In this document: piece by piece, positions 86 to 37,348 of the stretch
Layout: each line of letters opens with the position of its first letter
Numbering within the stretch: position 1 is the stretch's first letter
Origin: Cloacibacillus evryensis DSM 19522
GTDB lineage: Bacteria > Synergistota > Synergistia > Synergistales > Synergistaceae
Length of the DNA stretch: 64,000 nt
NCBI RefSeq assembly: GCF_000585335.1
Contig: NZ_KK073872.1
Span: 1,975,283 to 2,039,282, forward strand
Direction: 5' to 3'
Made by a program: the position numbers and the translations under genes
The notes under the pieces: generated by a model
Told to the model about the DNA's origin: nothing
Databases searched by the model: none
The model's input: the letters and a program-made list of their open reading frames with translations, nothing else

Positions 86-1603
86 TTACAGTACCTCTTT
101 GACGCTCTTTAAAATCGCCGCGCTTTTGACAAACTCGTAGGCCTTCTTGACGTCCGGCGCCAGCGGCCTGTCGTTGGTATAGAGCGGGATCACTCGGCGG
201 AACGCCTCGTATGCCGCGGCGGTCCCTTTGCCGAGGGCAAAGCCGTCGCGCTGTTTGCGCAGCTCGATGGCCTGGCAGGCGTGTATCAGCTCCATGCCGT
301 AGATATACTGGAGATCCTTCACTATCTGGCGCAGATGCTGCACGACGAGCGGCGTGTTGTTGGAGTGGTCCTCTATCGAGCCTGAGAGCGAGAGGTAATC
401 GACTGAACAGGGATTCGATAGGTGGCGTATCTCCGTATCAAGCGAGCCAAAACACTTCTGTATCGTACCGAAGCAGTGCGACTCGCCGCCGTCGTGGCTC
501 AGGAAGCGCGGCAGCTTCGTCAGCTCGGGGTTGGCGAGGCGCAGCATACGGTAGCAGGACATGCGCGAGACGTGGCTGAGGACGATCGAAAGCATCTCCA
601 CCGCCGTCGCGAGCGTCGTCGTCTCGAAGTTGGAATTGGAGATGATCCGCTTCTCGTCAAGCAGCAGGCAGGGGTTGTCGTCAGTGCTGTTCATCTGGAT
701 GACGAGATATTTCTCCGCGTATGCGAGCGCGTCGCGCAGCGAGCCATTGATATAGGCCGCGCCTCTGAAGCAGAGCGGGTCCTGCACCGGCTTGCCGGGG
801 TATCTTTTGTAGACGTCGCTGCCCGCGAGATAGGCGCGCATCCGTTCCGCGCTCTTCGCCTGCCCTTCCAGCTTCCGCGCCGCCATCACCTCCGGTTCGA
901 GGGGCGAGGTGTTGCCGTGGAGCCCTTCGAGCGAAAGGCTGGATATGACGTCCCCCATTTCGACGAGCTCTTCAAGCTCCTTTACCGCCAGCGCGGCCTC
1001 TCCCGCGGAGAAAGCGCTCGAACTGACGATCGCGAGGCCATCCTTCGGGCCGAGCACGACCGGCTCGAGGCCGGCGAGCTTGTGCGCCTCGGCAGAGCTC
1101 ATGCGGCGGCCCTGGTAATAGGCCTCGCCCTCGCCGATCATCACGAGGCCGATGTGCGCGAGCGGCGTGAGGTCGGCTTCTCCGACGGAACCCTTCTCGG
1201 GAACGACGGGATGGATGCCCGCGTTGAGCAACTCGGCGTAGCGACGCGCGACGGCGGGCTGGATGCCCGTGTAGCCGAGCAGCAGGCAGTTGAGCCTGAT
1301 CGCCATGATCGCGCGCACCTCGGCCTCGGAGGCCTCCGGCTCCACGCCGAAGGAGTGCGAATAGATAAGCTTGCGGTTGAAATCCTCGAAAAATTCTTTC
1401 GCTATCGTGTGGTCCTTGTTCCAGCCGACGCCGGTATTGAAGCCGTAGACGGGCACGTCGGCGTCCACCAGCTCGTAGACGAGTTTACGCGAAGCCTCAA
1501 GCCTCTCGTTCGCCTCGGGGCTGATCTCAACTTCCGCGCCGTTTACCGCGATCTCCCATACCTTGGCGACGGTCAGATCATTTCCTGTCAGTACGATCTT
1601 CAT
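86..1603 (-). CDS. MIO-less aromatic amino acid lyase homologue (ergothionase-like)
   Basis: 505-residue full-length member of the histidine/phenylalanine ammonia-lyase fold. Fold landmarks are present: the Tyr loop (YGFNTGVG, Tyr53), QDPLCFRGAA, NSTDDNP and a late IEDH carrying the equivalent of the HAL catalytic glutamate. The loop that in ammonia-lyases supplies Ala-Ser-Gly for the MIO cofactor (GSVGASGDL) reads GSVGEADLTPLAH here (residues 138-150), one residue shorter and without the triad, so MIO cannot form. The known MIO-free enzyme of this fold is ergothionase, which eliminates trimethylamine from ergothioneine to give thiourocanate. The start overlaps the stop of the BCCT transporter gene as ATGA, so transport and lyase are translationally coupled. 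Ergothionase is my best guess; a lyase for another trimethylated or N-substituted histidine is possible. Automatic annotation as HutH would be misleading. Confidence 0.75.
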   Translation of the reverse strand: MKIVLTGNDLTVAKVWEIAVNGAEVEISPEANERLEASRKLVYELVDADVPVYGFNTGVGWNKDHTIAKEFFEDFNRKLIYSHSFGVEPEASEAEVRAIMAIRLNCLLLGYTGIQPAVARRYAELLNAGIHPVVPEKGSVGEADLTPLAHIGLVMIGEGEAYYQGRRMSSAEAHKLAGLEPVVLGPKDGLAIVSSSAFSAGEAALAVKELEELVEMGDVISSLSLEGLHGNTSPLEPEVMAARKLEGQAKSAERMRAYLAGSDVYKRYPGKPVQDPLCFRGAAYINGSLRDALAYAEKYLVIQMNSTDDNPCLLLDEKRIISNSNFETTTLATAVEMLSIVLSHVSRMSCYRMLRLANPELTKLPRFLSHDGGESHCFGTIQKCFGSLDTEIRHLSNPCSVDYLSLSGSIEDHSNNTPLVVQHLRQIVKDLQYIYGMELIHACQAIELRKQRDGFALGKGTAAAYEAFRRVIPLYTNDRPLAPDVKKAYEFVKSAAILKSVKEVL

Positions 1604-3192
1604 TTCTGATGATCCTCCGCTGCCGGTTCCTCCTGGAACTTATCGATAAAGAATACCTTGACAAAAGCTACCACCTGTATCGCAAAGATGAAAAGCACCA
1701 CGAAGCCGGCCGCGGAGGAGAGCGCCTTGACGCCGTCCACTCCCTGAGCGCCGCCGCCGAAGGCCGCCATGATGATCGAGACGATACCGACCGAGATACC
1801 CCAGACTATCTTGATCTTCGCCGGAGGCTCGGTGCCGATGGGAACGTTGCGCATACACATCGAGCCGATGTTCGTCAGTGTCGCGTCGGCGCAGGTGATG
1901 AAGGAGGCGAGGATGACGAGGATGTTGACAGGCAGCACGACATAGCCGATGCCGAAGGGCAGGTTCTTAAGGAATTCCCAGAGCGCCATCACCGCGCCGC
2001 CGCTGTTGAGCGCGCCGACGAGGTCGGCTCCGCCGGACATCTGCATGTGCATCGCGCTGGAGCCCCAGACGGCGAACCAGACAATGCCGAATAGCGAGGG
2101 AAGCACCCAGTTGACGATCATATATTCGCGTATGGTCCTGCCGTATGAGAGCATGGCGAGGAAGATGCCCGTAACAGGCGCGTATCCGACCCAGAAGGCC
2201 CAGTCGAAGAGCGTCCATGAGCGCGTGAGCGGAGCGCCGCCGATATCGATCGGGTCGAGGCCCCAGAGCCAGAAGTTGTGCATCCAGGTGGCAAGCCCCG
2301 CGGTGCCGATCCTGAGGATGAAGAGCGTCGGTCCGGCGACGAAGAGGAGCACGATCAGCCCATAATAGAACCAGGCGTTGAGGTTGCCGACGATTTTAAG
2401 CCCCTTGTCGAGGCCGACGTATGTCGAGAAGGTGAAAGCGCAGACGATCGCCACGCCGATCGCGATGAAGACAGGCAGATTCACGTCGATGCCATAGCCC
2501 GCCTTGAGGCCGGTGACCGTGAGCGTGATGGCCATCGTGAGCCCCGTCGTGAGCCCGATCGTCAGCGCGAGCATCGAGAGGGTGTCGATGACCGCCGATG
2601 CCGCGGGCGTCGCGATCTTGTCGCCGAAGAGCGGCTTCAGCGTCGCGGTGACCGTGAGGCTGTCCCTCTTATGGTAGTAGATGTAGGCGACGAGCAGTCC
2701 GCACAGCGCGTAGATCGCGTAAGGCACGAAGGTCCAGTTATAGTAGGTGCGCGCCATCGCGAAGATAGCGGCGTCGGTCGTTCCGGGAGTGATGCCCAGT
2801 TTGTCAAGTTCTCCCCAGACGTTGCCAAGATAAATTACCGGTTCGTTGACGCCCCAGGTGACGATGCCGGTGGCGATGCCGCCCGTGAGCGCCATCGCGA
2901 ACCATGTAGCGAATGAATACTTGGGCTTGGCGTCCTTGCCGCCGATCCTGATTTTGCCGATCTTCGAGAAGGTCACGACCGCCACCAGCACAAAACAGGC
3001 CATGATCGAGATCTGATAGAGCCATCCAAAGGTGTCAAGCGACCAGGTAAAGATCATGTTGCAGGCCTGAGTCAGCATGTCCTTGTTGACGATGCCTACA
3101 ATAGCCGCCGCCGCGATGACGATGTAGGCGGGAATAAATACTTCCCAACGCACCGCTTTCTTCATGTCCATCGGAGTTTTTCCGGAATCCAT
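1600..3192 (-). CDS. BCCT-family betaine/carnitine/choline-type transporter
   Basis: 530-residue inner-membrane carrier with about twelve hydrophobic segments. It carries the BCCT signature region: a glycine-rich stretch followed by TWGVNEP in the third to fourth segment, and WTLFDWAFWVGYAPVTGIF followed by SYGRTIREY, matching the family's tryptophan-rich helix 8 and the RGRTIRE-type motif. BCCT carriers move compounds with a quaternary trimethylammonium group. A strong ribosome site (GGGAGG, eight bases before ATG) supports the start. The stop overlaps the start of the MIO-less lyase by four bases. Because ergothioneine is itself a betaine, the pairing suggests this is the uptake (or substrate/product exchange) system for the lyase substrate. 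Carnitine, choline or glycine betaine cannot be excluded from sequence alone. Confidence 0.88.
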   Translation of the reverse strand: MDSGKTPMDMKKAVRWEVFIPAYIVIAAAAIVGIVNKDMLTQACNMIFTWSLDTFGWLYQISIMACFVLVAVVTFSKIGKIRIGGKDAKPKYSFATWFAMALTGGIATGIVTWGVNEPVIYLGNVWGELDKLGITPGTTDAAIFAMARTYYNWTFVPYAIYALCGLLVAYIYYHKRDSLTVTATLKPLFGDKIATPAASAVIDTLSMLALTIGLTTGLTMAITLTVTGLKAGYGIDVNLPVFIAIGVAIVCAFTFSTYVGLDKGLKIVGNLNAWFYYGLIVLLFVAGPTLFILRIGTAGLATWMHNFWLWGLDPIDIGGAPLTRSWTLFDWAFWVGYAPVTGIFLAMLSYGRTIREYMIVNWVLPSLFGIVWFAVWGSSAMHMQMSGGADLVGALNSGGAVMALWEFLKNLPFGIGYVVLPVNILVILASFITCADATLTNIGSMCMRNVPIGTEPPAKIKIVWGISVGIVSIIMAAFGGGAQGVDGVKALSSAAGFVVLFIFAIQVVAFVKVFFIDKFQEEPAAEDHQK

Positions 3193-3223
3193 AAAAACAA
3201 CCTCCCAATCTGTTTTTATAATG

Positions 3224-3243
3224 AGGGGCCCGAAGGACCCCTT
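3224..3243 (-). other. Intra-operon stem-loop
   Basis: Short GGGGnCC / GGnCCCC hairpin in the 52-base gap between the hydroxylase large subunit and the BCCT gene. No T tail follows on the minus strand, so it may be an mRNA processing or stability element rather than a terminator. Confidence 0.4.
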
Positions 3244-3244
3244 A

Positions 3245-5482
3245 TTACCTTTTTTCAGCCGCCGCCGCGATCTTCGCCGGCGTCAGCGGCAGTTCCGTGA
3301 GCGAGGTCCCCAGCGCCCTGTTGACGGCGTTGACTATCGCCGCCGATACGGGGACGGTGCAGACCTCGCCTATGCTCTTGGCCCCGAACGGGCCGCCCGG
3401 CTCTCCGTCCTCTATGAGCAGGATATCGACCTCGGGCATATCGGGCGCGTTGACCATGTGGTACTTGTCGAAGTTTTGAGCCTTCGGCCTGCCGTCGGCT
3501 CCGTAATCAAGTTCTTCGCAGAGCGCCATGCCGATGCCCATCTGCACGCCGCCGTATATCTGCCCGTCGACGAAGCTGCGGTTTATGCTCTGCCCCACGT
3601 CATGGACGGCAAGGTATTTCTCTACCTTGACCAGGCCCGTAAGTTTATCCACCCTCACCTGCGCGAAGTGAACGCCGAATGAGGCGGGGTTGGCGTCAGG
3701 CGCGTGCTCATAGTGAGCTTCGACCGAACAGCGCTTCTTCATCATTATGCTGCGCACGGCCTCGCCGAGATCTATCTTCTTGCCGCCGGCGACGACAAAA
3801 CCGTCGCGAAGCTCGGCGGGGGCGTCGTATATTTCCGAGGCTTTGGCGCATAACAGCTTGACGGCCTCCTCGGAGACGAGGCGCGCGCATTCGCCGCAGA
3901 CGTAGATGACGCGGCTCGCCTGACAGCCGGCGTCGTAAGAGCTGAAATTCGTGTCGCCCTCCGTGACTGTCACCTTTGAAATGTCTATTCCGGTGGCCTC
4001 GGCGACGATCTGCGCGAGCGCCGTCGTCGTGCCGTTGCCAAGTTCGTGGATCGCCGTGCGCAGTATCGCCGAACCGTCCTCAAGGATGCGCAGCGACATC
4101 TGCGTCATGTCGTGATAAATGGTTTTGTAATAGCCGTTGCCATGCGTACAGCAAGCAAAGCCGGACGCCGTGACGAAACGTCCGTCGGGACTTTCCGAAG
4201 GTCCGCGAAGCCATTCCCAGCCGAAACGTTCCGCGCCCCGCGTGAGGCACTCTATGACGCGCGCTTTGCCGATATTGGAAGCGCCGCTCGGGTCGGCGTC
4301 GCCGTCGTGGACGAGGTTGTCGAGGCGAAAACGCACGGGGTCGAGGCCGAGACGTTTGCACATGAGATCCGTATGTATCTCGGTGATCGTGTGTATCTGC
4401 GGCGAGCCGTAGCCGCGGCAGGCACCCGCCGGCGTCGTCGAGGTGCGCACGACGCGCCCCTCGTAAACCATCGCGGGGATACGGTAGAGGCGCGAAGCTT
4501 TTTTGCCCATCGCCATCATCACCTTTTTCGTCCCCGTCAGATAAGCGCCGGCGTCGGCGGTAATGTCGAACTTGCGCGCGAGAATGCGGCCTTCGGCGTC
4601 GAGCGCCGTCGTCACGCGGCCGCGAACCGCGGCGCGCGTGCGCGTGGCGGCCATCGTCTCGCCGCGGTTCGTGTTGATGAATACGGGGCGGCGCAGCTTC
4701 CAGGCGGCCCAGGCACAGAGCGGCTCAAAGACCGACTCCTGCTTGCCGCCGAAGGTGCCGCCCATGTTGGCCTTGATGACGCGGATCTTTGAGAGCGGCA
4801 GCGGCAGCACCTGCGCCACCGCGTGCTGAACGCCGAATATTATCTGGCACGGAGTATGCACCTCGATGACGTTCTCCGGGCGCGGCAGCGCGAGGACGCA
4901 GTGCGTCTCCATCGCCGCGTGGTGTATCTTGGGCGTGTATATCTCGTCGCTTTCGACGTAGGCGGCCGCGGCGAAAGCAGCGTCGGCGTCTCCGTAGCCG
5001 AGGCGGCCCGTGAACGAACTTTCGCCGTCCTCGTGGAGCAGCGCCGCCTTTTCCTGCGCTTCGCGCATATCGACCACCGGCGGCAGCGCCTCATATTCGA
5101 CCTTTATCATGCGCAACGCGGCGCGGGCCCTGTCCTCGTCATCCGCGAGCACGAGGCCGATGCGGTCGCCGACATGGCGCGCGTGGCCGGTGAGGATCGT
5201 TTCATCAGGAAAGTCGTTCTGCCCGGGGAACCATTCGCCGCTGTTGTATTTATTGTCAGGCGCGTCGCGGAATGTGAGCACAATGACGCCCTCCATCCGC
5301 TCCGCTTCGGAAATATCGATATTTTTAATAATAGCGTTGGGCTGTTCGCTGAGCAGCGGCACTCCAACGAGCGTGTCCTGCGGCAGCGAGTCCGCGAGAT
5401 AGTCGTACGCGCCGCGCACCTTGTCCGCGGAATCCTCGCGAATGACCCTTTTGCCTATATATTTAAAATCTTTATTAGTCAT
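3245..5482 (-). CDS. Xanthine dehydrogenase-family molybdenum-binding subunit
   Basis: 745-residue large subunit of a molybdenum hydroxylase, binding molybdopterin cytosine dinucleotide and hydroxylating C-H bonds next to ring nitrogens. Visible motifs: MGGTFGGKQES near residue 246, GACRGYGSPQ near 357 and GPFGAKSIGE near 702, the last holding the catalytic glutamate of the family. Purine oxidases have Glu after FGGK (bovine Glu802); here it is Gln, which argues against xanthine as substrate. I start at ATG 5482 rather than the in-frame GTG at 5491: the ATG has an AAGGGG site upstream and overlaps the preceding stop as ATGACTAA. Together with the next two genes it forms a separate-subunit Mo/FAD/2Fe-2S enzyme. 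Its substrate is likely the imidazole acid made by, or feeding, the lyases (inference). Confidence 0.9.
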   Translation of the reverse strand: MTNKDFKYIGKRVIREDSADKVRGAYDYLADSLPQDTLVGVPLLSEQPNAIIKNIDISEAERMEGVIVLTFRDAPDNKYNSGEWFPGQNDFPDETILTGHARHVGDRIGLVLADDEDRARAALRMIKVEYEALPPVVDMREAQEKAALLHEDGESSFTGRLGYGDADAAFAAAAYVESDEIYTPKIHHAAMETHCVLALPRPENVIEVHTPCQIIFGVQHAVAQVLPLPLSKIRVIKANMGGTFGGKQESVFEPLCAWAAWKLRRPVFINTNRGETMAATRTRAAVRGRVTTALDAEGRILARKFDITADAGAYLTGTKKVMMAMGKKASRLYRIPAMVYEGRVVRTSTTPAGACRGYGSPQIHTITEIHTDLMCKRLGLDPVRFRLDNLVHDGDADPSGASNIGKARVIECLTRGAERFGWEWLRGPSESPDGRFVTASGFACCTHGNGYYKTIYHDMTQMSLRILEDGSAILRTAIHELGNGTTTALAQIVAEATGIDISKVTVTEGDTNFSSYDAGCQASRVIYVCGECARLVSEEAVKLLCAKASEIYDAPAELRDGFVVAGGKKIDLGEAVRSIMMKKRCSVEAHYEHAPDANPASFGVHFAQVRVDKLTGLVKVEKYLAVHDVGQSINRSFVDGQIYGGVQMGIGMALCEELDYGADGRPKAQNFDKYHMVNAPDMPEVDILLIEDGEPGGPFGAKSIGEVCTVPVSAAIVNAVNRALGTSLTELPLTPAKIAAAAEKR

Positions 5483-6320
5483 CCGCCCCACCCCTTCCCG
5501 TTCTCTTCATAAGAAGGGCAGTCACATCCTGCGCGAGCGCGCGCAGCGCCGACTGCTTATAGGGCAGCGTCGGACGTCCCGGGATAGCCGAAGCGGCAAA
5601 GGCGCAAAGCTCCTCTGGGAACCCCTCTTCAAATCCCGGCGCGCCGAGCGCGGCTTCCGCGCCGGCGCATCTTTGGGCCGCGGAGCCGAGCGTGCCCACA
5701 TAGACGCGGGCTTCTTTATAAAGCCCGTCCTCGTATCGCGCGGAAACGGCGATGTTTATGCGTGAGATGCTGACCTGGCTCCGGCTGCCGATCTTCAAGA
5801 ACGCTGAGACGCGGCTCTCGTCGGCAGGTATGACAAATCCTTTTATGATCTCGCCCGCGGCGAGTCTATTTTTATTGCGGCCGAGGACCTCTTCGATGGT
5901 AAGGGCGCGTTCGCCAGCCGCCGATGCGGTCACGGCCCGCGCGCCGAGCGCGGCGAGCGGAGCCGGGGTATCCGCCGCGGGAGAGGAGTTGGCGACGTTG
6001 CCGCCGACTGTGGCGCGGTTGCGTATCTGTTCCGAGCCCATGACGTAGGCGGCGTCCGCCAACGCGGAGGCGTATTTTCGCACCAGCCGGCTGCGGTGAA
6101 GGTCCGTCATCGTCTCCATCGCGCCGATCCGCAGTAAGCCTTCCTCAAAAGATATCCCTTTGAGCTCTTCCATCAGCGAAAGATCGGCCACCGAGGTTCC
6201 CCCGGCGAGCCTGCCGTGATTTTTTATCACCCAGTCGCTGCCCCCGGCTACAAATTCCATACCGGGGCGGTAGATCGAAAAGAGTTCGTCCAGCGTGCGC
6301 GGGCGTTCGAGGACGTTCAT
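5475..6320 (-). CDS. Xanthine dehydrogenase-family FAD-binding subunit
   Basis: 281-residue medium subunit (CoxM/XdhB type). It shows the N-terminal FAD-binding region with FVAGGSDW (residues about 19-26) and the pyrophosphate-binding TVGGNVANSSPAAD segment near 107-120, followed by the C-terminal CO-dehydrogenase flavoprotein domain. It passes electrons from the 2Fe-2S subunit to an acceptor, probably NAD or a quinone. Its ATG overlaps the stop of the iron-sulfur gene by four bases, and its stop overlaps the start of the large subunit by eight, so the three subunits are made in a coupled fashion. Confidence 0.9.
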   Translation of the reverse strand: MNVLERPRTLDELFSIYRPGMEFVAGGSDWVIKNHGRLAGGTSVADLSLMEELKGISFEEGLLRIGAMETMTDLHRSRLVRKYASALADAAYVMGSEQIRNRATVGGNVANSSPAADTPAPLAALGARAVTASAAGERALTIEEVLGRNKNRLAAGEIIKGFVIPADESRVSAFLKIGSRSQVSISRINIAVSARYEDGLYKEARVYVGTLGSAAQRCAGAEAALGAPGFEEGFPEELCAFAASAIPGRPTLPYKQSALRALAQDVTALLMKRTGRGGADD

Positions 6321-6790
6321 CTTCCGTTCCCCCCGAGCCTTTCGGCGGCCTCAGAGACGGCGTTGACGATCGGGATGTATCCCGTACAGCGGCAGACGTT
6401 CCCCGCGAGCGCGCGCTTGATCTCGTCGCGGTTCGGATGGGGATTTTTCAGCAGCAGCGCCTTCGCGGACATTATCATGCCGGGAGTGCAGAAGCCGCAC
6501 TGTACCGCGTCGCAGTCGATGAAGGCCTGCTGGAGCGCGTCAAGTTCGCCGTTTTCCTCAAGCCCCTCGATCGTCGTCACCGAATGGCCGTCGGACTGAA
6601 CGGCTGGGACGACGCAGGAACATACGGCCTCGTCGTCAAGCAGCACCGTGCAGGCGCCGCATTCTCCCGCGCCGCAGCCCTCCTTCACACCGGTAAGCCG
6701 GAAACTGTTCCGCAGCATGTCGATGAGCCGCGTATCGGCCTCGACCTCCGCCGTCCTTGTCTTTCCATTAAGCGTCAATGAAATCCTCAT
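6317..6790 (-). CDS. Xanthine dehydrogenase-family 2Fe-2S subunit
   Basis: 157-residue small subunit (CoxS/XdhC type) with two [2Fe-2S] clusters. The plant-ferredoxin-like cluster uses Cys39, Cys44, Cys47 and Cys59 (GCGAGECGAC...CSC). The second uses CGFC and CRC in the C-terminal helical domain. The start at 6790 is chosen over the longer frame to 6817 because AAGGAGAG lies six bases upstream and the family begins at this MRISLTLNG-like sequence. A perfect 18-base GC palindrome (6825-6842) lies in the 73-base gap to the upstream lyase gene. It carries electrons from the molybdenum centre to FAD. Confidence 0.92.
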   Translation of the reverse strand: MRISLTLNGKTRTAEVEADTRLIDMLRNSFRLTGVKEGCGAGECGACTVLLDDEAVCSCVVPAVQSDGHSVTTIEGLEENGELDALQQAFIDCDAVQCGFCTPGMIMSAKALLLKNPHPNRDEIKRALAGNVCRCTGYIPIVNAVSEAAERLGGNGR

Positions 6791-6863
6791 TTTCTCTCCT
6801 TGTAATGACCAACACAACGGGAGCCGCCGCGCGCGGCGGCCCCGCTTCCGCGCGACGCGCCGA

Positions 6864-7970
6864 TCAGAGCGTCAAAAACTTCCCCGCCAGCTCCACGGCG
6901 TAGTAAAATTTACGGGCGGCGGTAAAGCTGAATTCCACGTGGTCCTCCTGCCCGCCCTTTGTCGGTATCGAATCGGCGCTGACCTGCATCGCGCAGGTCT
7001 TTATCTTGTTCAGCAGGTGGCGGCCCTCGTTCTTCGCGATCTTGCCGGATATCTTTTCAAAGACGCCGTTCGCGAGCTCGACGATGACGGTGTTCATCAT
7101 ATCCGCCGCGTAGCCGACCTGCGTATTGCTGCAGTTGCAGCCCATCACCGCCTCATAGCCGCCCTCGGGCAGCTCGAAGAGCAGGGGGTTGTCGCAGGAG
7201 ATGTTGTTCTCCCTGTTAAGTATTCCTTTTGTGAATTCGACGACCCCGCTGCAGCCGGCGAAAAATTCCGGCAGTTCTGCGCCGCCGGCCAGACGCGCCT
7301 CGACACGCGGCAGCAGCTCCTCAAAACGCAGGAAGGCCAGCACGGCGATCGCCTGCGTCATCGTGGAGCCGTTCATCTGCGCAAGCACCTCTTTGCATTC
7401 GAGCGTGAAGCTCTCGGCTAGTCCGGCTTTGCGCAGCGCCTCGCGCGACGGCATCAGTCCGCCTTCGTAATAGGCCTTCGCCTCGTCGAGCCCGGCCACC
7501 GTCATCACGTTCTGCGCGAGCGGGCCGAGGTCGGAAAGCCCCGTCGAACCCTCGCTGTGGACGGCCGGCGCCACCTTCGCGTTATAGATGGCAAGTATCC
7601 TCTCTATAAGCTCGGGGCGCACGCCGCTGTATCCTCTCGCGAGCACGTTGGCGCGCAGCAGCAGCGAGGTCAGCGTCACCTCGGGCGGCAGATAGTCGCC
7701 CATGCCGGCCGCGTGCGGATAGGGCAGCGTCTTGTTCCATTCGATATGCTTCTCCGGCGGCACGACGACATCCTTGAGGTTGCCGAGCCCCGTGTTCACT
7801 CCGTAGACGACGGGAGCGTCCTTTTCCATCCAGCGGTCGATCTGCGAACGCGTGGCGCGGCAGCGCGCGGCCGCCTCGTCGGAAAGGGCGACGCGCGCCT
7901 CTTTGTCCGCCATTATCGTGCGGATCGTTTCAAGGGTAAGGCTGTTTCCGTCTATGTAATAAATGCTCAT
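6864..7970 (-). CDS. Partial aromatic amino acid lyase-fold protein, subunit A
   Basis: 368 residues, against roughly 500 for complete family members. It keeps the N-terminal active-site half: the Tyr loop VVYGVNTGLG (Tyr56), the MIO-loop region GSTGLSDLGPLAQ (141-153), EVLAQMNGS, CDNPLLF, and near the end SADSIPTKGGQEDH with Glu342 matching the HAL catalytic Glu. The middle of the fold, including the QDPYSLRC segment that supplies the substrate-binding Arg in HAL, is missing. The MIO loop lacks Ala-Ser-Gly, so the cofactor cannot form. It lies 15 bases after a gene for a protein that holds the missing part (7986-9272), and GGGAGG precedes its ATG. I infer a heteromeric lyase or a lyase-like binding complex; substrate unknown. 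Confidence 0.7.
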   Translation of the reverse strand: MSIYYIDGNSLTLETIRTIMADKEARVALSDEAAARCRATRSQIDRWMEKDAPVVYGVNTGLGNLKDVVVPPEKHIEWNKTLPYPHAAGMGDYLPPEVTLTSLLLRANVLARGYSGVRPELIERILAIYNAKVAPAVHSEGSTGLSDLGPLAQNVMTVAGLDEAKAYYEGGLMPSREALRKAGLAESFTLECKEVLAQMNGSTMTQAIAVLAFLRFEELLPRVEARLAGGAELPEFFAGCSGVVEFTKGILNRENNISCDNPLLFELPEGGYEAVMGCNCSNTQVGYAADMMNTVIVELANGVFEKISGKIAKNEGRHLLNKIKTCAMQVSADSIPTKGGQEDHVEFSFTAARKFYYAVELAGKFLTL

Positions 7971-7985
7971 CCTCGTCGTTCCTCC

Positions 7986-9272
7986 CTACCTAAGTCCGCC
8001 GACTGCTTCTTCGGCGGCGTTCAGCACTTCTCCGCTGGTTATAAGGCGATCGGCCTCGTTCATATCGGGCGAAACGAAACGGTTTTCCGTCATCATCGCG
8101 ATGCTCCCGCGGACCTTGTCTTTTACAGCCGACGTTCCCCTGCCGAAGGAAAATGCGGGGACCTTTTCTTTTACGATATCCATGCCCTGGCAGGCCATCA
8201 GCAGTTCTATCGCCATCACCTTCGCGAAGAGCGGCAGCGCCCGCAGCATCTTCGTGCCGGCGTAGTAGGCCGCGCACTCGCCCGGCTCCTTCACTACGGC
8301 GCTCGGCAGCGCGAGCAGCTTCAGTTCGGCGACGAGCGCGGCCTGATTGGACTGCACCACGGGAAAGCCGTGATTGAGCCCGGTCGCTCCGTGTGTGAGA
8401 TTCATCGGCAGTCCGTATGAGAGGCGGCTGTCGTTGAGGCGGAAAGTACGGCGCTCGCAGATATGCGCCATGTCGGAGACTGCCGTCTCCAGGCCGTCGA
8501 GCGCGTATTCGACGCCGTAGCGGCTGCCGCCGTCAAAGACGGTCTTCTCCACCGACTCCTCGGCGAAATAGCAGACGTCGCGCGCTCCGCCGTGAGTCTG
8601 CGGCGTGGCGCGGACGCAGATCGCGTCCTGCACACGCGGATGAGTGTCGTAGCCGAAGGCGTAGCGCCCCTCGTCCGTCGTCATCCGGCTGCCGGAAACG
8701 AGGGCGCGCACGTTCGCCGCGCAGTCTATCTGTCCCCGGAAGGGACGGGCGATCGAGGAAAGGCGGTCGTCGAAAGCGCCCAACTCGCCGCGGATCGCCT
8801 CAAGGTTGAGAGCGGTCACGACGTCCGCGACCTTCATATATTCATGCGCCTTTTTCACACAATACCAGGCGATGCCGTTCGCGACACAGCCGCTGGCGGA
8901 GACGAAGGGCCAATCCTCGCGCCGGGCGCCGGCGGACAAAAGCGCGTCAAAGAGCTCAGCGAGCAACACTGCTTCGGAGTTTGTCTCGTAATGCAGTTCC
9001 GGAGCGTTTTTGCCGTCGAGCATTTTTTCCAGCACGCCGGCCAGTTCATTTTTTTCGTAAAGCAGGGATTCGAGATAGAGAAGAGAGGCCGCGCACACAG
9101 CCGCCTCGCGCGGCAGCGCCGAACAGGAAAGGTCAAGCTGTTTTTTCGCGTCGTCAAATGAGATATCTTCCGCCGACGCACGCGCCGGGCGGGATTTCAC
9201 CGCGGCCGCCGCCTCCCTTACGGATCGCGGCGTAAAGCCGGAAGCGGAGATCGTTTCAAGATGTTGGAGCAT
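7986..9272 (-). CDS. Partial aromatic amino acid lyase-fold protein, subunit B
   Basis: 428 residues carrying the central helical core of the ammonia-lyase fold. Present are TALNLEAIRG (about 153-162), PRVQDAICVRATPQTHGG (212-229, the counterpart of HAL VQDPYSLRCxPQ) and the helix-rich C-terminal core ending in ELLMACQGMDI. It has no Tyr loop, no MIO loop and no QEDH segment. These are exactly the parts kept by the neighbouring 6864-7970 protein. In family tetramers each active site is built from three chains, so two chains that have lost different parts could rebuild one site. Two ASG tripeptides occur (10-12 and 126-128) but not in the MIO-loop context. First gene of the operon; AGGGGGA lies seven bases before ATG. 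Confidence 0.68.
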   Translation of the reverse strand: MLQHLETISASGFTPRSVREAAAAVKSRPARASAEDISFDDAKKQLDLSCSALPREAAVCAASLLYLESLLYEKNELAGVLEKMLDGKNAPELHYETNSEAVLLAELFDALLSAGARREDWPFVSASGCVANGIAWYCVKKAHEYMKVADVVTALNLEAIRGELGAFDDRLSSIARPFRGQIDCAANVRALVSGSRMTTDEGRYAFGYDTHPRVQDAICVRATPQTHGGARDVCYFAEESVEKTVFDGGSRYGVEYALDGLETAVSDMAHICERRTFRLNDSRLSYGLPMNLTHGATGLNHGFPVVQSNQAALVAELKLLALPSAVVKEPGECAAYYAGTKMLRALPLFAKVMAIELLMACQGMDIVKEKVPAFSFGRGTSAVKDKVRGSIAMMTENRFVSPDMNEADRLITSGEVLNAAEEAVGGLR

Positions 9273-9515: not shown

Positions 9516-9550
9516 CTGGAGATATGACGACAACGGAAGAGGGCGAAGGA

Positions 9551-12520
9551 ATGAAATTAAAGATATCGCTGCTTGGGAACAGCCTGATAGAGTACGAAGG
9601 AGAAAAGGTAACATTCAAACTCCATAAGGCGGAGGCTCTTCTGTACTATATCGCGCTGAACGGCGGAGCCTCCCGCGACGAACTGAAAGCACTCTTCTGG
9701 TATGACAAAAACGAGGCCCAGGCTTCGGCAAACCTCAGAAACGCCCTTTACCTCATAAACAGCATGATGCCCGGCGTCCTCACCGCCGACCGTCGAACGG
9801 TGACGCTCGCCCCCTTCGACAGCGATATGAAACATTTAAGCTCCGCCGCCGACCCGAACGCCGCGATCCCCGCCGCCATCTACCAAACGCCGCTCAAGGG
9901 ACTATCCTCCCTGAACTACCCCGCCTTCAACGAATGGCTTGATTCCGCAAGGGAGAAGATCCGGGGCGACGTCATCGACCTGATCAAACAACGCGTCGAG
10001 GCGGCATACGACAGGCAGGACAACGAGGCGCTCGGCGAATCCCTAGCCGCCGCCATCAGGCTGGACCCGTTTGACGAAGACTCGGTGCTCGAACTGATGG
10101 AGCTCTACTCAAACACCGGACAGAACAGCCGCGCGGTCGAACTCTTTCAAAACTATTCATCTATGCTCAACACTAAGCTTTCCATCGCCCCCTCGGAGAG
10201 AGCCAAGAAATACTACGCGAAGATATTCAGACACAATGACCTTAAAAAAGGACAGCCTAAGTTCTGGTGCCGCGAGCGGGAGATGGCGGCACTCTCCGAA
10301 AAACTGGCGGAAGAGGCCCGCTGCCTCTTTTTTATCCACGGCGAGGCCGGAATAGGGAAGACATCGCTCATAAACGAACTTCTGGCGGCAATGCCGGAGG
10401 GAAGCGCGTCCGTGCTCTCCGCAAAGGCGACGATGATCGGCGGGAGCTACGCCTATTCCTCCTGGAACAACATCCTGCGGGAGTTGGGAGCCCTCCTTGA
10501 GAGGACGGGCAACGCTCCCGACAAAAAGACCGCTTCGATACTGGCCTCTATATCTCCCGGCTTTACAAAAAACGAGGGGCTCTCCTTCAACGCGGACCTC
10601 TCGAGCGTTACGGAGATAAACCCGGTGGCGCTCGCCTCGATGATCGCCGAGCTGATCGCCGTCCTCGCAAAGCGCCGCCGCGTCGTGATGGTCTTCGAGG
10701 ACATCCACTGGTTCGACTCGCGTTCCATCGAGCTGCTCTGCGCCTTCCTCTCCTGCGCCCCGCAGGCGGACATAATCATATCAGGACGCCCCGAAGCGGC
10801 GCGGATGACGATGGCGATGCTCAGACAGGCAAAGTGCGGCCGCGCGATCACCGAAGTCGAACTGAACCCCTTCCGCGACGATGAAATAATATATATCTGC
10901 CGCAGCCTGCTCCCCGAAAGCACGATAAAAGAGCGGGGCCTTTCATACTTCGTGCGCGAAAGCGAAGGCGTGCCGCTCATGCTCTTTGAAATATTGCGCG
11001 CGCTCAAAGAAAACCCCGATTCCGACTGCGCGAACGGTCTCGGCGCGCTCATAATCGAACGCATGGGCGAATTGAGCGAACGCGAGCGCGACGTCTCGAA
11101 CGCGATCGCTGTCTGCTCGGGCGGCCCCGCCGAGATAATTTCCGAAATAACGGAGATCCCCATCGGCGACACGCTGGCCTCCGCGGAGCGGCTCATCGCC
11201 ATGGGGCTTGTCCGCGAACGCGAGGAGGCGGGCAACGCCTTCTGGGAATTTACGCATCTAAAACTGCGCGAATGCGTTTACGACGCCATTCCCGCGGCGC
11301 GGCGCAAGGAGCTCCACCGCCGCGCCGCCGCCGCGCTCGACAAAAGATACCTGCCCCAGCATTGGGACCCCGCGCTCAGCGCGATGCTGAGCCACCATTA
11401 CGCGAAAGCGGGAGAGAGGGTGCTTGAACTCAAGCAGTATCTGCGGGAACTCATCTTCGACATCACGCTGAACCACGACCTTTTCCCCACGCTCTCGGAC
11501 CGCCTCTTCCTCTCCTGCTCGATGCCGTTCAGCAGCCGCGAGGAGACCGATAAAAAAGTGGAACACGCGGTCTCGATCCTTGACGAACTGCGCGGCTCGC
11601 CGGCGCTGTCAAAACGCGAATACGCGCAGCTGGAGGCATCGTGCTTCGAGCTGGCGGGCGGCTACCGTATAAGCTGGGGGGAATACACGGGCGCAAAGCT
11701 CTATACGGACGAAGCGATACACATCTCAAAGATGCACGGCTTCACAGAGACGCACATTCACTGTTTGAAACATTACGCCTATATGTACCTGCAGACGGAA
11801 GAGCCGGAAAAATTGATAAGCGTCGCCCGCGAGCTGCTGCGCCTGGCAAAGGCGGCTCCCGCGCCGCATTATTTCGCCACGGCGGTGCGTTTTATCGGGA
11901 TGGGCTATATGATGAAACAGGATTACGCGCGCGCTGAAAAAATATTCCTCTACGCGGTCAGGCTGTTTGAACGGATGACTCTGACGGGCCGAAGATATAC
12001 CTTGGGCATGCTCGTCGCCAAATGCTATCTGGGAGAAATATACGAACGGACTGGCGATCTGGAGAGAGCGGCGGAACAGCTCTCCGAGTGCACCGGCAAA
12101 TGCGAAGAGATGAACCTCTACTGGGGAAGAAGCTACTTTCACACCGGCGCGGCAAACGTCGCGCTGGACGCGGGCGACATGAAAGGACTATTTTCGCATA
12201 TCGACCGCGCCGCCGCGCTCTTTGAAAGCTGCCGCGGCGGTCGCTGCGGATCGATACTGTACAGCACGAAAGCCATCGCCGACGCGGAACGCGGCGACCT
12301 GGAGGGCGCGCGCAAGGCGCTTGAAAACTCGGAACTCCTGCTGCGCCTGATCGCCAAACACGACTGGGTCGCCGCCCACCATCTGGCAAAGGCATGGCTC
12401 GCGCGGCTGAGCGGAGAAGATTTCCGCGCCGACGCGGAACGGGCGGCGAGTGAATATGAGGAAAACGGATTCCCTCTGCGCGCGGCCTGGATAAGGGAAA
12501 AGTTCGGGATCGAAAGATAA
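9551..12520 (+). CDS. SARP/BTAD-type transcriptional regulator with AAA ATPase and TPR domains
   Basis: About 989 residues. Residues 1-90 form a winged helix of the OmpR/SARP type. Residues about 95-230 are a bacterial transcriptional activation (BTAD) helical repeat domain. A P-loop ATPase follows, with Walker A GEAGIGKTS near 264-272 and Walker B VVMVFEDIHW near 378-387. The C-terminal third is helical repeats of TPR character. Such STAND-type proteins couple signal binding to ATP-dependent oligomerisation and activate nearby operons. It is divergent from the lyase/hydroxylase/transporter operon, with a 250-base spacer, and is the obvious candidate activator, perhaps sensing the substrate. 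An in-frame ATG at 9524 would add nine residues. Terminator follows. Confidence 0.85.
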   Translation: MKLKISLLGNSLIEYEGEKVTFKLHKAEALLYYIALNGGASRDELKALFWYDKNEAQASANLRNALYLINSMMPGVLTADRRTVTLAPFDSDMKHLSSAADPNAAIPAAIYQTPLKGLSSLNYPAFNEWLDSAREKIRGDVIDLIKQRVEAAYDRQDNEALGESLAAAIRLDPFDEDSVLELMELYSNTGQNSRAVELFQNYSSMLNTKLSIAPSERAKKYYAKIFRHNDLKKGQPKFWCREREMAALSEKLAEEARCLFFIHGEAGIGKTSLINELLAAMPEGSASVLSAKATMIGGSYAYSSWNNILRELGALLERTGNAPDKKTASILASISPGFTKNEGLSFNADLSSVTEINPVALASMIAELIAVLAKRRRVVMVFEDIHWFDSRSIELLCAFLSCAPQADIIISGRPEAARMTMAMLRQAKCGRAITEVELNPFRDDEIIYICRSLLPESTIKERGLSYFVRESEGVPLMLFEILRALKENPDSDCANGLGALIIERMGELSERERDVSNAIAVCSGGPAEIISEITEIPIGDTLASAERLIAMGLVREREEAGNAFWEFTHLKLRECVYDAIPAARRKELHRRAAAALDKRYLPQHWDPALSAMLSHHYAKAGERVLELKQYLRELIFDITLNHDLFPTLSDRLFLSCSMPFSSREETDKKVEHAVSILDELRGSPALSKREYAQLEASCFELAGGYRISWGEYTGAKLYTDEAIHISKMHGFTETHIHCLKHYAYMYLQTEEPEKLISVARELLRLAKAAPAPHYFATAVRFIGMGYMMKQDYARAEKIFLYAVRLFERMTLTGRRYTLGMLVAKCYLGEIYERTGDLERAAEQLSECTGKCEEMNLYWGRSYFHTGAANVALDAGDMKGLFSHIDRAAALFESCRGGRCGSILYSTKAIADAERGDLEGARKALENSELLLRLIAKHDWVAAHHLAKAWLARLSGEDFRADAERAASEYEENGFPLRAAWIREKFGIER

Positions 12521-12951: not shown

Positions 12952-13590
12952 TTACCGCTTTTTCTTTTCAGAATACCAAAACAACCCAAACGCCAGCAGA
13001 GCCGCAGCGGGGATACCGGAATTACATCCGCCACCGCCGCTGCCCTCACCTCCAGGATCGGTAGGGTCGGTCGGATCGGTCGGATCGGTAGGCGGCTTGC
13101 CAGTGTCGGTTACCGTTACTGTACACGAATCGCGCTTGGTTGAATCGGCGCGAGCATAGACGCTTATGACGGCCGTCCCTGCAGAAACGCCGGTTATAGT
13201 TTTATCCCATATATTATTACCGCTGACAGCCGCGACCTTAGGGTTGCTTGATGTCCACACGACGACCCTGTCAGGCGCCGTATTAGGGCTTACAGTCGCC
13301 TTCAACGTTATACTGCTTCCGACTTTTATTGCGGAAGTGGGCTTGCCGGACATGACAACGCTCGTTATTTGACTCTCCATACATTGCTGATACTTTAAGT
13401 AAGCAAAATACGTCCTCTGTTGTGCCTGCTGACAACTGATAACCGTACCGGTCCGGCAAATTGTCAATTCCGCCTGTTTAGCCGCAAGATACGCATTGTA
13501 AAAGCTATCGCACTTCCCCGCTTCCGCCGTGTTAATAAATCCGACAACAGCTGCCGTTATGCCAATTACCAGTACGCAAAATTTTTTCAT
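12952..13590 (-). CDS. Secreted Big2-domain protein with Synerg-CTERM-like tail
   Basis: 212 residues from ATG 13590, chosen because GGAGG lies eight bases upstream and a signal peptide follows at once (MKKFCVLVIGITAAVVGF...AEA). The mature N-terminus is cysteine-containing and helical. Residues about 90-175 form a bacterial Ig-like (Big2) domain with the typical WTSSNPKVAAVSG and GVSAGTAVISV strands. Then comes a (PTD)n linker and a C-terminal GSGGGGCN plus hydrophobic stretch plus EKKKR. That tripartite tail matches the Synerg-CTERM sorting signal known from Synergistetes, so the protein is probably processed and anchored at the cell surface. Binding partner unknown. It is downstream of a DsbA-like gene that could form its disulfides. 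Confidence 0.75.
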   Translation of the reverse strand: MKKFCVLVIGITAAVVGFINTAEAGKCDSFYNAYLAAKQAELTICRTGTVISCQQAQQRTYFAYLKYQQCMESQITSVVMSGKPTSAIKVGSSITLKATVSPNTAPDRVVVWTSSNPKVAAVSGNNIWDKTITGVSAGTAVISVYARADSTKRDSCTVTVTDTGKPPTDPTDPTDPTDPGGEGSGGGGCNSGIPAAALLAFGLFWYSEKKKR

Positions 13591-13665
13591 TTCCTTTACC
13601 TCCACAATTCTATTTCGCCGCAATGCATGAAACGCTATCTTAGCCCTTACTATCAGCGTCGGTTA

Positions 13666-13921
13666 TCATTCCCATCGCATCATGCAGAGAAGGCTATACC
13701 ATTTATAGTACGCATGACTGCCATTCATATGTCCGCATCTTATACATACGCTTGAAGAACTGTTTGGGTCCTGCACGTATGCAGGGCATTTGCATTACAG
13801 AATGTTACACGCGCCCCATGCACGTTTTATGGGTTCCGAAAAAGCAAAAGCGTTTGAATAGACCGCAGCACCTGTAAGAACAGAAAACAGAACAGCTATT
13901 ATCCACTCTTTTCGTCATCAT
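13666..13921 (-). pseudogene. Frameshifted small secreted zinc-ribbon-like protein
   Basis: GGAGG and two ATG codons (13916-13921) start a frame that, after shifting by one base in an AAAA run a few codons in, reads as a clean signal peptide (EWIIAVLFSVLTGAAVYSNA) and then SEPIKRAWGACNIL. After one in-frame TAA the same frame continues as a cysteine-rich segment with CKC and CIRCGH, resembling a zinc ribbon, and ends at TGA 13666. One frameshift plus one nonsense codon indicates a decayed gene. A programmed frameshift is less likely because of the stop. Product family not named. Confidence 0.5.
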
Positions 13922-13934
13922 ACGACCTCCTAGG

Positions 13935-14732
13935 TTAGTTTGTGGTTTCAGTCTGCGAAAGCGCCATTTCCACAGCCTCGCACAGGAGCTCGTAGCGAAT
14001 CTTGCCCGGTATCATCAAATTACCGATGATTATGCATGGCCTGAATTGTATTCCCAATACATCCGCTTCTTTTACATTCCTCTCCACCAGCTCTTTTACA
14101 CGATTTGAGCGAATTGCAGCAAGCGTTGCATTCATGTTGAACCCATATTTCCTCAATACTTCCACGAAATATTTATCTCCGTCCTTAACAATGCGCTGCG
14201 GATTTTGAAAAAAATCGTCATGTACTTTCCACGCTTTCTCCGGTGATATTGAAAAAGCCCCCACAAAATATTGAGCGGCCAGATCGGTATTAGGTATCTG
14301 ATCAAGCGGAAGCGTCTTATAAACGTAGCCAATATCATATTCCGTTGAAAGTTTTTCGAGATCAGGCGCTAGTTCCCGGCAGTAACGACAGAAAAAATCA
14401 GAATATACGACAATTTTAACAGTGGAGTTCCTGTTTCCTTTAATTGGGCTGCCAGCGAATGATATTTTTTCGAGGCGGTCGTTGTTTCTCACATCCACAC
14501 GCCAGGTTTCCCGCAATCCGTTCTCATATATTTGATTTTCACCGCGCTGTGATATTTGATAGAGTTTTTCACAATCCACGCTCAACACGTCAATTATCAC
14601 TTCCGGGTTCTTTTGAATATAGTTTTTGATTTCTTCGTCTATCACCCTTCCTCCGACACGACAAACAAAAACTCCCATGCACAGCAACAACGACGCACCC
14701 ACAACACATAAACAAATTACTTTTTTATTCAT
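13935..14732 (-). CDS. DsbA-like thiol:disulfide oxidoreductase
   Basis: 265-residue exported or membrane-anchored protein with an N-terminal hydrophobic segment (about 4-25). A thioredoxin-fold domain starts near residue 100. Its active site is FCRYC, and the cis-proline region reads QFRPCIIIG, as in the DsbA/Com1 (thioredoxin_4) group, which swaps or introduces disulfide bonds in extracytoplasmic proteins. GGAGG lies five bases before ATG. The neighbouring cysteine-containing secreted genes on the same strand (13666-13921 and 12952-13590) are plausible clients. Transcription probably starts at the consensus promoter at 14939-14968, leaving an unusually long leader of about 200 bases. Confidence 0.8.
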   Translation of the reverse strand: MNKKVICLCVVGASLLLCMGVFVCRVGGRVIDEEIKNYIQKNPEVIIDVLSVDCEKLYQISQRGENQIYENGLRETWRVDVRNNDRLEKISFAGSPIKGNRNSTVKIVVYSDFFCRYCRELAPDLEKLSTEYDIGYVYKTLPLDQIPNTDLAAQYFVGAFSISPEKAWKVHDDFFQNPQRIVKDGDKYFVEVLRKYGFNMNATLAAIRSNRVKELVERNVKEADVLGIQFRPCIIIGNLMIPGKIRYELLCEAVEMALSQTETTN

Positions 14733-14926
14733 GTGCGCCTCCTTTCAGTATTATTAAATTTTCCAAGACGGCAAACAAGTTCATAAAGTGGAAATATTTT
14801 CGATACAGAACAAAAAAACGTTACACATTAGTACGCCCTCATACAAGGCGTAGCCCCTATCTCATAAAATTTAACAACTTAATGTGTTTCTTCATTTAAA
14901 TAAAAAATAATAGATAATATGCGCTT

Positions 14927-14955
14927 TTGTTGAGAGTGATTATAAACCGTTTATT
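14927..14955 (+). promoter_or_regulatory. Probable promoter of the XRE-S24 regulator
   Basis: TTGTTG (14927-14932), 17-base spacer, TTTATT (14950-14955). It overlaps the opposed minus-strand promoter, so one bound repressor could control both directions. Confidence 0.45.
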
Positions 14956-14968
14956 GTACGTTTGTCAA
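14939..14968 (-). promoter_or_regulatory. Consensus sigma-70-type promoter toward the DsbA-like gene
   Basis: On the minus strand TTGACA (14968-14963), 18-base spacer, TATAAT (14944-14939). Both hexamers are perfect. It lies just ahead of the divergent XRE-S24 gene, whose product is the likely repressor. Confidence 0.7.
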
Positions 14969-15007
14969 CTTAATATTGATATTTATCTGCTTGATAATAG
15001 AGCTGTT

Positions 15008-15637
15008 ATGTTTAAGAATGGACGAATGTACAACTCTATAGGAAAAAGAATACGCAGAAAAAGAATAGAAGCCGAGCTCACTCAAGAAAAGCTCGCTGAA
15101 TTGACGAGAGTATCCAAATGGACCGTCATTAACTGGGAGTCCGACAAACGCGTTCCGCTTGCGACCTCGCTCAGGGATATTGCTTTCGTGCTCAAAACTC
15201 CAGCGGCATATTTTCTTTACGGAGATGAAAATGACATTGGAGATAGCGTTATTCACGGCGAAGCTAACAACAAGGATATTGGCTTTGACAAGCTACTTTC
15301 AATACCCGTCTATAAAGTAAATGATATTTCTGCGCGGCCGCTCACAAAATTCGCCGTTATCGCAGAGGACAACTCGATGGAAGGAGTGGGAATCCCATTG
15401 GGTTCCAAAGTTATAGTAGACCCTTGCGAACCAGTGAAAAACATGGACATAGCGCTTATTAAATATCAGGATATGACAGCTTTTAGAAAAGTTGGTTTCA
15501 TGAAAAATGGAAGCATTCAAATTCTATCAGCGGACAAAATTAGATTTTTCATACCCAAAGAAGAAAACACACCTGATTCTTTTTTTATTTACGGTAAAGC
15601 CTGTTGGATACTTTCCAAACCACGGCACGGCGCGTAG
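15008..15637 (+). CDS. XRE-family repressor with S24 peptidase-like domain
   Basis: 209 residues from ATG 15008 (an in-frame ATG at 15026 is also possible; upstream codons to 14927 would overlap the promoter). Residues about 12-70 form a helix-turn-helix of the lambda repressor type (LTQEKLAELTRVSKWTVINWES). The C-terminal half is an S24/LexA-like dimerisation domain with EDNSMEGVGIPLGSKVIVDP, in which Ser of DNSM is the usual nucleophile. Such proteins are phage-type or stress repressors. It faces the DsbA-like gene across overlapping promoters. Its codon use is more AT-rich than the core genes, consistent with a mobile or accessory origin. Confidence 0.85.
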   Translation: MFKNGRMYNSIGKRIRRKRIEAELTQEKLAELTRVSKWTVINWESDKRVPLATSLRDIAFVLKTPAAYFLYGDENDIGDSVIHGEANNKDIGFDKLLSIPVYKVNDISARPLTKFAVIAEDNSMEGVGIPLGSKVIVDPCEPVKNMDIALIKYQDMTAFRKVGFMKNGSIQILSADKIRFFIPKEENTPDSFFIYGKACWILSKPRHGA

Positions 15638-37297: not shown

Positions 37298-37348
37298 AAA
37301 TATCCTCCCAATCATAATAAAACTGTATATGAATAATTTATCCTATAT

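Follow-up and report, generated by a model that had tools for sequence, protein, structure and literature searches.

Two adjacent genes on the minus strand of a 64,000-nucleotide stretch of the Cloacibacillus evryensis DSM 19522 genome (here called the window; the genome is one contig of 3.49 Mb) probably encode an obligate heteromeric, MIO-free enzyme of the HAL/PAL fold, assembled as A2B2 and eliminating an amine as ergothionase does. Gene A (6864–7970, 368 aa) specifies the subunit with the Tyr loop, the former MIO loop and the QEDH segment, and gene B (7986–9272, 428 aa) the core/C-terminal subunit with the equivalents of Gln277 and Arg283. Association of A with B is very likely, although assembly is inferred and direct evidence of a complex is lacking; independence of the rebuilt site from MIO is inferred with the same high confidence, in the absence of activity data for the chemistry. 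For elimination of an amine from a betaine-type substrate, likewise inferred without activity data, the case stops a little short of even. The composite proposal of an obligate, MIO-free A2B2 enzyme in which neither product alone forms a site, two of the four ancestral sites are given up, an amine is eliminated from a betaine-like substrate and the pair moved between phyla as a unit is somewhat more doubtful still, and an imidazole substrate such as hercynine, inferred from the retained His83 and Glu414, is improbable. If the heteromer is real, A/B would show cleanly, in a natural system, how a homo-oligomer whose sites are shared between chains turns into an obligate hetero-oligomer.

Membership of both proteins in the aromatic amino acid lyase fold is certain. 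A and B are paralogs in Lyase_aromatic (PF00221; curated cut-off 27.3 bits), which matches A with E 1.1e-70 and 239.1 bits (best stretch 11–223 against model positions 1–209) and B with E 4e-48 and 164.7 bits (254–388 against 327–465). Both fall below the cut-off of 539 for the HutH equivalog TIGR01225 (A, 209.5 bits; B, 143.9 bits), so annotation pipelines may leave them unnamed (NCBIfam). Their sequence relatives in the PDB are HAL, TAM and PAL; among solved structures A matches 7TQR at 1.2e-39 vs. ergothionase 6S7J at 9e-16, and 6S7J is absent from the solved-structure sequence matches of B. The two genes are separated by 15 bases (7971–7985, minus strand) that contain a Shine-Dalgarno-like GGAGG, and the stop codon of B, read from the sequence, is TAG.

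Members of the HAL/PAL family are described as homotetramers that depend on MIO, and the known exception without MIO is ergothionase. In published HAL structures one chain (i) contributes Tyr53, His83 and Asn195 to a site, a second (j) Gln277 and Arg283, and a third (k) Glu414. Active sites of the family are built from three interlocking monomers (PMC9002059). Mutagenesis of GkHAL at Tyr52, His82, Asn194, Gln274, Tyr277, Arg280, Phe325 and Glu411 yielded dead or crippled enzymes, with Y52F, H82L, N194D and E411D inactive (PMC11432326), and these are the same positions as in the site table compiled here, for which A and B were aligned with 22 full-length lyases, including P. putida HAL and T. 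denticola ergothionase (both sequences taken from printed search alignments).

Equivalents of HAL Tyr53, His83, Asn195 and Glu414 are retained in all 13 copies of A that were found, and the Gln277–Arg283 segment is deleted from every one. All 13 copies of B retain Gln277 and Arg283, carry Ile for Tyr280, and do not retain Tyr53, His83, the MIO loop, Asn195, Phe329 or Glu414. On the minus strand of the window, A presents the Tyr loop VYGVNTGLG at 7782–7808 (Tyr invariant, 13/13), the former MIO loop GSTGLSDLGPLA at 7515–7550, in which Ala-Ser-Gly has given way to Leu-Ser with one residue deleted (13/13), Asn200, the counterpart of HAL Asn195, at 7371–7373 (13/13), CDNPLLFE (HAL about 311–318) at 7173–7196, GCNCSN at 7125–7142, with an invariant Cys for HAL Phe329 (13/13), and QEDH with the Glu414 equivalent at 6939–6950 (13/13). 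The corresponding motif of B, VQDAICVRATPQ, lies at 8598–8633 (minus strand) and holds Q277, I for Y280 and R283, all three invariant in 13/13. In P. putida HAL numbering, about 228–279 and 359–381 are missing from A, and the Tyr loop (45–65), the MIO loop and 314–330 from B; the kept blocks interleave along the chain (A 53–191, B 227–290, A 308–329, B 355–401, A 405–415, B 441–469). With such reciprocal loss, neither A nor B is a single polypeptide holding all active-site residues. An earlier note on this DNA, made from the letters alone, had described at 6864–9272 one subunit that keeps the Tyr loop, former MIO loop and QEDH without the middle and another that keeps the middle core with VQDAICVRATPQ without those three elements; its coordinates and content are correct, and the description holds for all 13 pairs.

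The reciprocity that the earlier note pointed out is also statistically strong, invariant over the 13 pairs and absent when other family members are compared. Among 62 family-conserved columns, A alone keeps 27 and B alone 19, while 1 is kept by both and 15 are kept by neither (Fisher p 5.8e-6); with HAL-like references only, the counts are 45, 37, 1 and 54 (p 2e-7), and when the count is restricted to columns aligned in A as well as in B, they are 27, 15, 1 and 33 (p 0.003). These p values are indicative only, as columns are not independent and some losses are of whole segments. None of five other family pairs tested had a deficit of columns kept in both, and the control comparison of ergothionase with the GSVxY type, another MIO-less group, gave 34 columns in both and the opposite trend (p 3e-6). 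Kept columns of A coincide with those of the ergothionase or the GSVxY group, and B is neutral toward either. That A and B are separate homomers, merely co-transcribed, whose matching losses reflect separate new functions, remains compatible with the recognisable lyase fold retained by each and with the lack of assembly data; it is nonetheless very unlikely in the face of perfectly reciprocal loss in 13 pairs, a complementarity that reaches such p values when other family pairs show no deficit, and the want of a single orphan in 188 Synergistota genomes.

Given the residues kept in A and B, a complete site needs A as chain i, B as chain j and A as chain k. By D2 book-keeping, only one of the three A2B2 arrangements works, in which two sites are complete and two empty, whereas A4, B4 and AB3 provide no complete site and A3B provides one. 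Since B and A share one reading frame (TAG plus 15 bases between them), the read-through chain was folded as a tethered heterodimer. AlphaFold2 returned pLDDT 74.3 and pTM 0.70 for the window chain (802 aa) and pLDDT 76.0 and pTM 0.83 for a Paenibacillus chain (967 aa); against a pTM of about 0.5 for randomly placed halves (our own estimate), the relative placement of A and B appears to be predicted with some confidence. Foldseek searches with the B-A models gave HAL, TAM and ergothionase as top matches (PAL also matched). The models are biased by the tether and by homology and provide only global confidence, without site distances, and AlphaFold2 may dock any two tethered subunits of the HAL/PAL fold.

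The proposal of the earlier note that a heteromer of A and B could rebuild a shared site is supported by reciprocal loss and co-occurrence, but the rebuilt site cannot equal the old MIO site. Judged from the alignment, it is incompletely rebuilt, with Tyr280 and Phe329 lost from both subunits. The absence of Ala-Ser-Gly and the replacement of Tyr280 by Ile and of Phe329 by Cys imply a chemistry unlike that of ammonia-lyases, and with the triad not kept, A/B do not qualify as a MIO-dependent ammonia-lyase or aminomutase. The same lost triad and replaced residues could be taken to mean that the A-B heteromer serves another function, for example ligand sensing, an aminomutase or hydratase reaction, or the deamination of a free amino acid by way of an unusual cofactor derived from the Leu-Ser-Asp loop, a reading also favored by the Ser of the old triad, retained in 13/13 A, and by the XDH-type hydroxylase that accompanies pair 1 (the pair in the window) and the Cuneatibacter pair, where betaine transport is thus not the only neighboring function. 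This reading is unlikely: the acid/base and carboxylate residues stay invariant across all 13 pairs, and a pure sensor would have no need of this exact set; nor is a shortened loop in which Asp follows Ser known to cyclise.

The 13 A/B pairs are distributed over Synergistota, Lachnospiraceae (Cuneatibacter) and Paenibacillaceae, which represent two phyla, and B lies directly before and adjacent to A in every one. Over 188 Synergistota genomes, the A profile gave six strong matches in three genomes (587–666 bits; next, 190 bits) and the B profile six strong matches in three genomes (561–693 bits; next, 220 bits); the two profiles pick the identical three genomes, with two copies of each gene, and neither detected an orphan A or B in these 188 genomes. 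In Bacillota, each A locus found adjoins a B (the search was anchored on A, and an orphan B was outside its scope); carriers were 1 of 348 genomes of the family of Cuneatibacter and 6 of 396 of Paenibacillaceae, and wider draws from the phylum contained zero further pairs, so the gene pair is rare. A collection-wide scan with A, limited by its need for exact peptide patterns, recovered only Cuneatibacter and two Paenibacillus. A-like genes in plasmid records were all below 60% identity; among the matches listed, identity was 31–33% and most were annotated as histidine ammonia-lyase, the best match being from Embleya. The co-occurrence check suggested in the earlier note turned out positive, with pairs in three bacterial families.

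The second of the source genome's two pairs lies 31 kb from the window pair and has diverged from it (pair 2; G000:C1:1950601–1952974, L014:10599–13023, minus strand). Pair 2 has its own divergent BTAD/AAA_16 regulator and adjoins acyl-CoA genes (thiolase, CaiB-type CoA-transferase, OYE, enoyl-CoA hydratase, acyl-CoA dehydrogenase). In Cuneatibacter, a second A-like frame of 290 aa without the Tyr loop (L011:11381–12253) directly follows the intact pair and may be a degrading duplicate.

In trees, A and B each form one clade (100/100 for each), and their subtrees branch alike, with Paenibacillus set against pair 1 and against Cuneatibacter plus pair 2, the matching order expected if both genes travel together. 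The Cuneatibacter pair groups with the Synergistota pair-2 branch, so the A/B pair has probably been transferred between phyla as a unit. In the joint tree, A and B group together (95/87), with a program warning that two long branches meet there, and their nearest full-length relatives are Ala-Cys-Gly lyases such as L002 (88/74, not starred). Descent from ergothionase is unsupported by the best tree, in which ergothionase is not the sister clade of A/B, yet it is not rejected (AU p 0.21). Comparison of the window with the congeneric genome G137 gives dN/dS values of 0.105 and 0.072 for A and 0.140 and 0.120 for B, as against 0.064–0.107 for the neighboring ergothionase, XDH and BCCT genes; by these values, both A and B are under purifying selection.

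The earlier note had favored subfunctionalisation after duplication over decay, and duplication is what the grouping of A with B (subject to the long-branch warning), the matching subtree order and dN/dS of 0.07–0.14 uphold. A decaying split pseudogene of one lyase, for which the shortness of A and B relative to a normal lyase might speak, is refuted by conservation and can be set aside almost entirely: the frames are intact with dN/dS near 0.1 for both genes, 13 pairs with strongly invariant motif residues are conserved over two phyla, and the longer Paenibacillus versions (444 and 518 aa) show identical losses.

For the MIO-free heteromer, the following course can be proposed. One full-length lyase gene would have been duplicated, after which A would have lost the segment with the carboxylate-binding Gln/Arg, and B the parts with the Tyr loop, MIO loop, Asn195, Phe329 and Glu414. 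In the A2B2 tetramer, two of the sites would be rebuilt as A-B-A and the other two would be empty; at a rebuilt site, the Tyr-loop base of A would abstract the beta proton, the Arg of B would bind the substrate carboxylate, and the amine would depart without electrophilic help. With no MIO in the rebuilt site, a good leaving group is favored, e.g., trimethylamine from a quaternary-ammonium amino acid, which would be imported by the betaine-class transporters adjoining the pair. Amine elimination of the betaine type is favored by the ergothionase-like deletion in the triad together with the quaternary-ammonium transport genes beside many pairs; a weak hint of an imidazole ring comes from His83 and the QEDH segment, which occur in HAL but not in the aligned tyrosine aminomutase (nqdvv). 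The heteromer predicts that A and B are active only in combination, that each tetramer has two sites and that a single A-A two-fold axis is allowed. Were the substrate a quaternary-ammonium amino acid, the pair would also give gut bacteria a route to trimethylamine that has gone unrecognised; a recent survey of gut microbial ergothionase states that it would miss divergent homologues (PMC13405746).

Among known systems, HutH (P. putida 1B8F/1GKM, T. acidophilum 7TQR, T. cruzi 6V6H) has the same fold and includes the nearest solved structures to A, with Tyr53, His83, Asn195 and Glu414 matched in A and Gln277 and Arg283 in B; it differs in that A/B are two genes with reciprocal site loss, no Ala-Ser-Gly, Ile for Tyr280 and Cys for Phe329. 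Identification of A/B as HAL was rejected on the missed equivalog score and the absent MIO triad. Ergothionase, which releases trimethylamine without MIO (PMC13405746), resembles A/B in the loss of the MIO triad by a one-residue deletion, at the identical position in A, in a residue other than Tyr at 280 and in the retention of Glu414 and Arg283. In contrast to A/B, a single chain of ergothionase (T. denticola 6S7J) holds all residues, and the position of Asn195 is occupied by Ser or Cys, where A keeps Asn. On sequence grounds, A/B, which are neither nearest relatives of ergothionase nor, in the best tree, members of its clade, have not been shown to be an ergothionase. The Ala-Cys-Gly lyases (L002, L019, L023) have the motifs NTGLG, DLGPL, ADSIPTK.QEDHV and PRVQD in common with A/B, but each is encoded at full length by a single gene, with the triad intact and no catalytic residue missing. 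Tobacco PAL heterotetramers are mixed tetramers of near-identical lyases (Reichert 2009, known through its citation in PMC9262799), and intragenic complementation is known from the literature on argininosuccinate lyase/delta-crystallin. In both, multi-chain sites let differently impaired subunits complement each other, as is proposed for A/B; there, however, whole-enzyme subunits or mutants are involved, whereas in A/B the labor is divided between two conserved genes. Mixed tetramers are thus already known, but no heteromeric or split member of the HAL/PAL family, and no fixed two-gene division of the site, was found in the open-access literature searched.

The minus strand from 86 to 9272 reads as one gene run, in which neighboring genes overlap or are separated by 15 to about 50 bases. 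Together with A and B it includes the 2Fe-2S (6317–6817), FAD (5475–6320) and molybdopterin (3245–5491) subunits of an XDH-type molybdenum hydroxylase, a BCCT (betaine/carnitine/choline-type) transporter (1600–3192) and a full-length, MIO-less, ergothionase-like lyase (86–1603; closest structure 6S7J, E 1e-144). The lyase gene overlaps the BCCT gene by 4 bases and has XDH sets on both sides, the second lying downstream of it and outside the window; the ergothionase-like, BCCT and XDH genes are likely an ergothioneine-use cluster. It could be supposed that A and B lack activity of their own and modulate a full-length relative in the same cell, whether ergothionase or another HAL-like protein, by mixing with it, since the gene run encodes an ergothionase-like one and the source genome has six full-length lyases besides its two A/B pairs. 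Such a role is highly improbable: A and B are distant from ergothionase in sequence and complementary to each other, neither of them to ergothionase, and the Cuneatibacter and Paenibacillus pairs have no adjoining full-length ergothionase-like gene. Among the six (L001–L006), the MIO triad occurs only in L001 (ASG) and L002 (ACG); L005 and L006 are MIO-less and ergothionase-like, and L003 and L004 are of the MIO-less 'GSVxY' type with three residues deleted.

As to the substrate of the A/B enzyme, a BCCT gene is part of the A/B gene run in the source genome and in G137, and an EgtU/OsmF/OpuCC-class binding protein or ABC operon adjoins 6/6 Paenibacillus pairs. Next to the Cuneatibacter pair, however, lie an SSS symporter and XDH in place of a betaine-type carrier, and no betaine-type transporter was detected near pair 2 of the source genome within the 20 kb read around it; the guess of a betaine substrate is weak for these two reasons. 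Divergent from the gene run, a BTAD/AAA_16 transcriptional regulator is encoded at 9524–12520 (plus strand), and its homologues adjoin both pairs in the source genome and in G137, pair 2 of G169 and the Cuneatibacter pair. Comparison of the region upstream of B at five loci revealed no convincing shared operator.

Further genes near the pairs were observed. A secreted BIg2-type protein, a DsbA-like thioredoxin and an XRE-type regulator are encoded near pair 1 (window 12952–15637), and the set recurs in another genus (G169; L065:10702–12977) despite an otherwise different neighborhood; directly upstream of that G169 pair is an encapsulin-shell (Linocin_M18) gene (L065:7130–7930). Luciferase-like flavin monooxygenases lie near Paenibacillus pairs (L069:3748–6559 and L013:4173–6540), and at L069 they separate the A/B pair from the betaine-type ABC transporter. 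Elsewhere in the window, 31481–37315 is an unusually long open frame of 1944 aa with a PAS-like stretch at its start.
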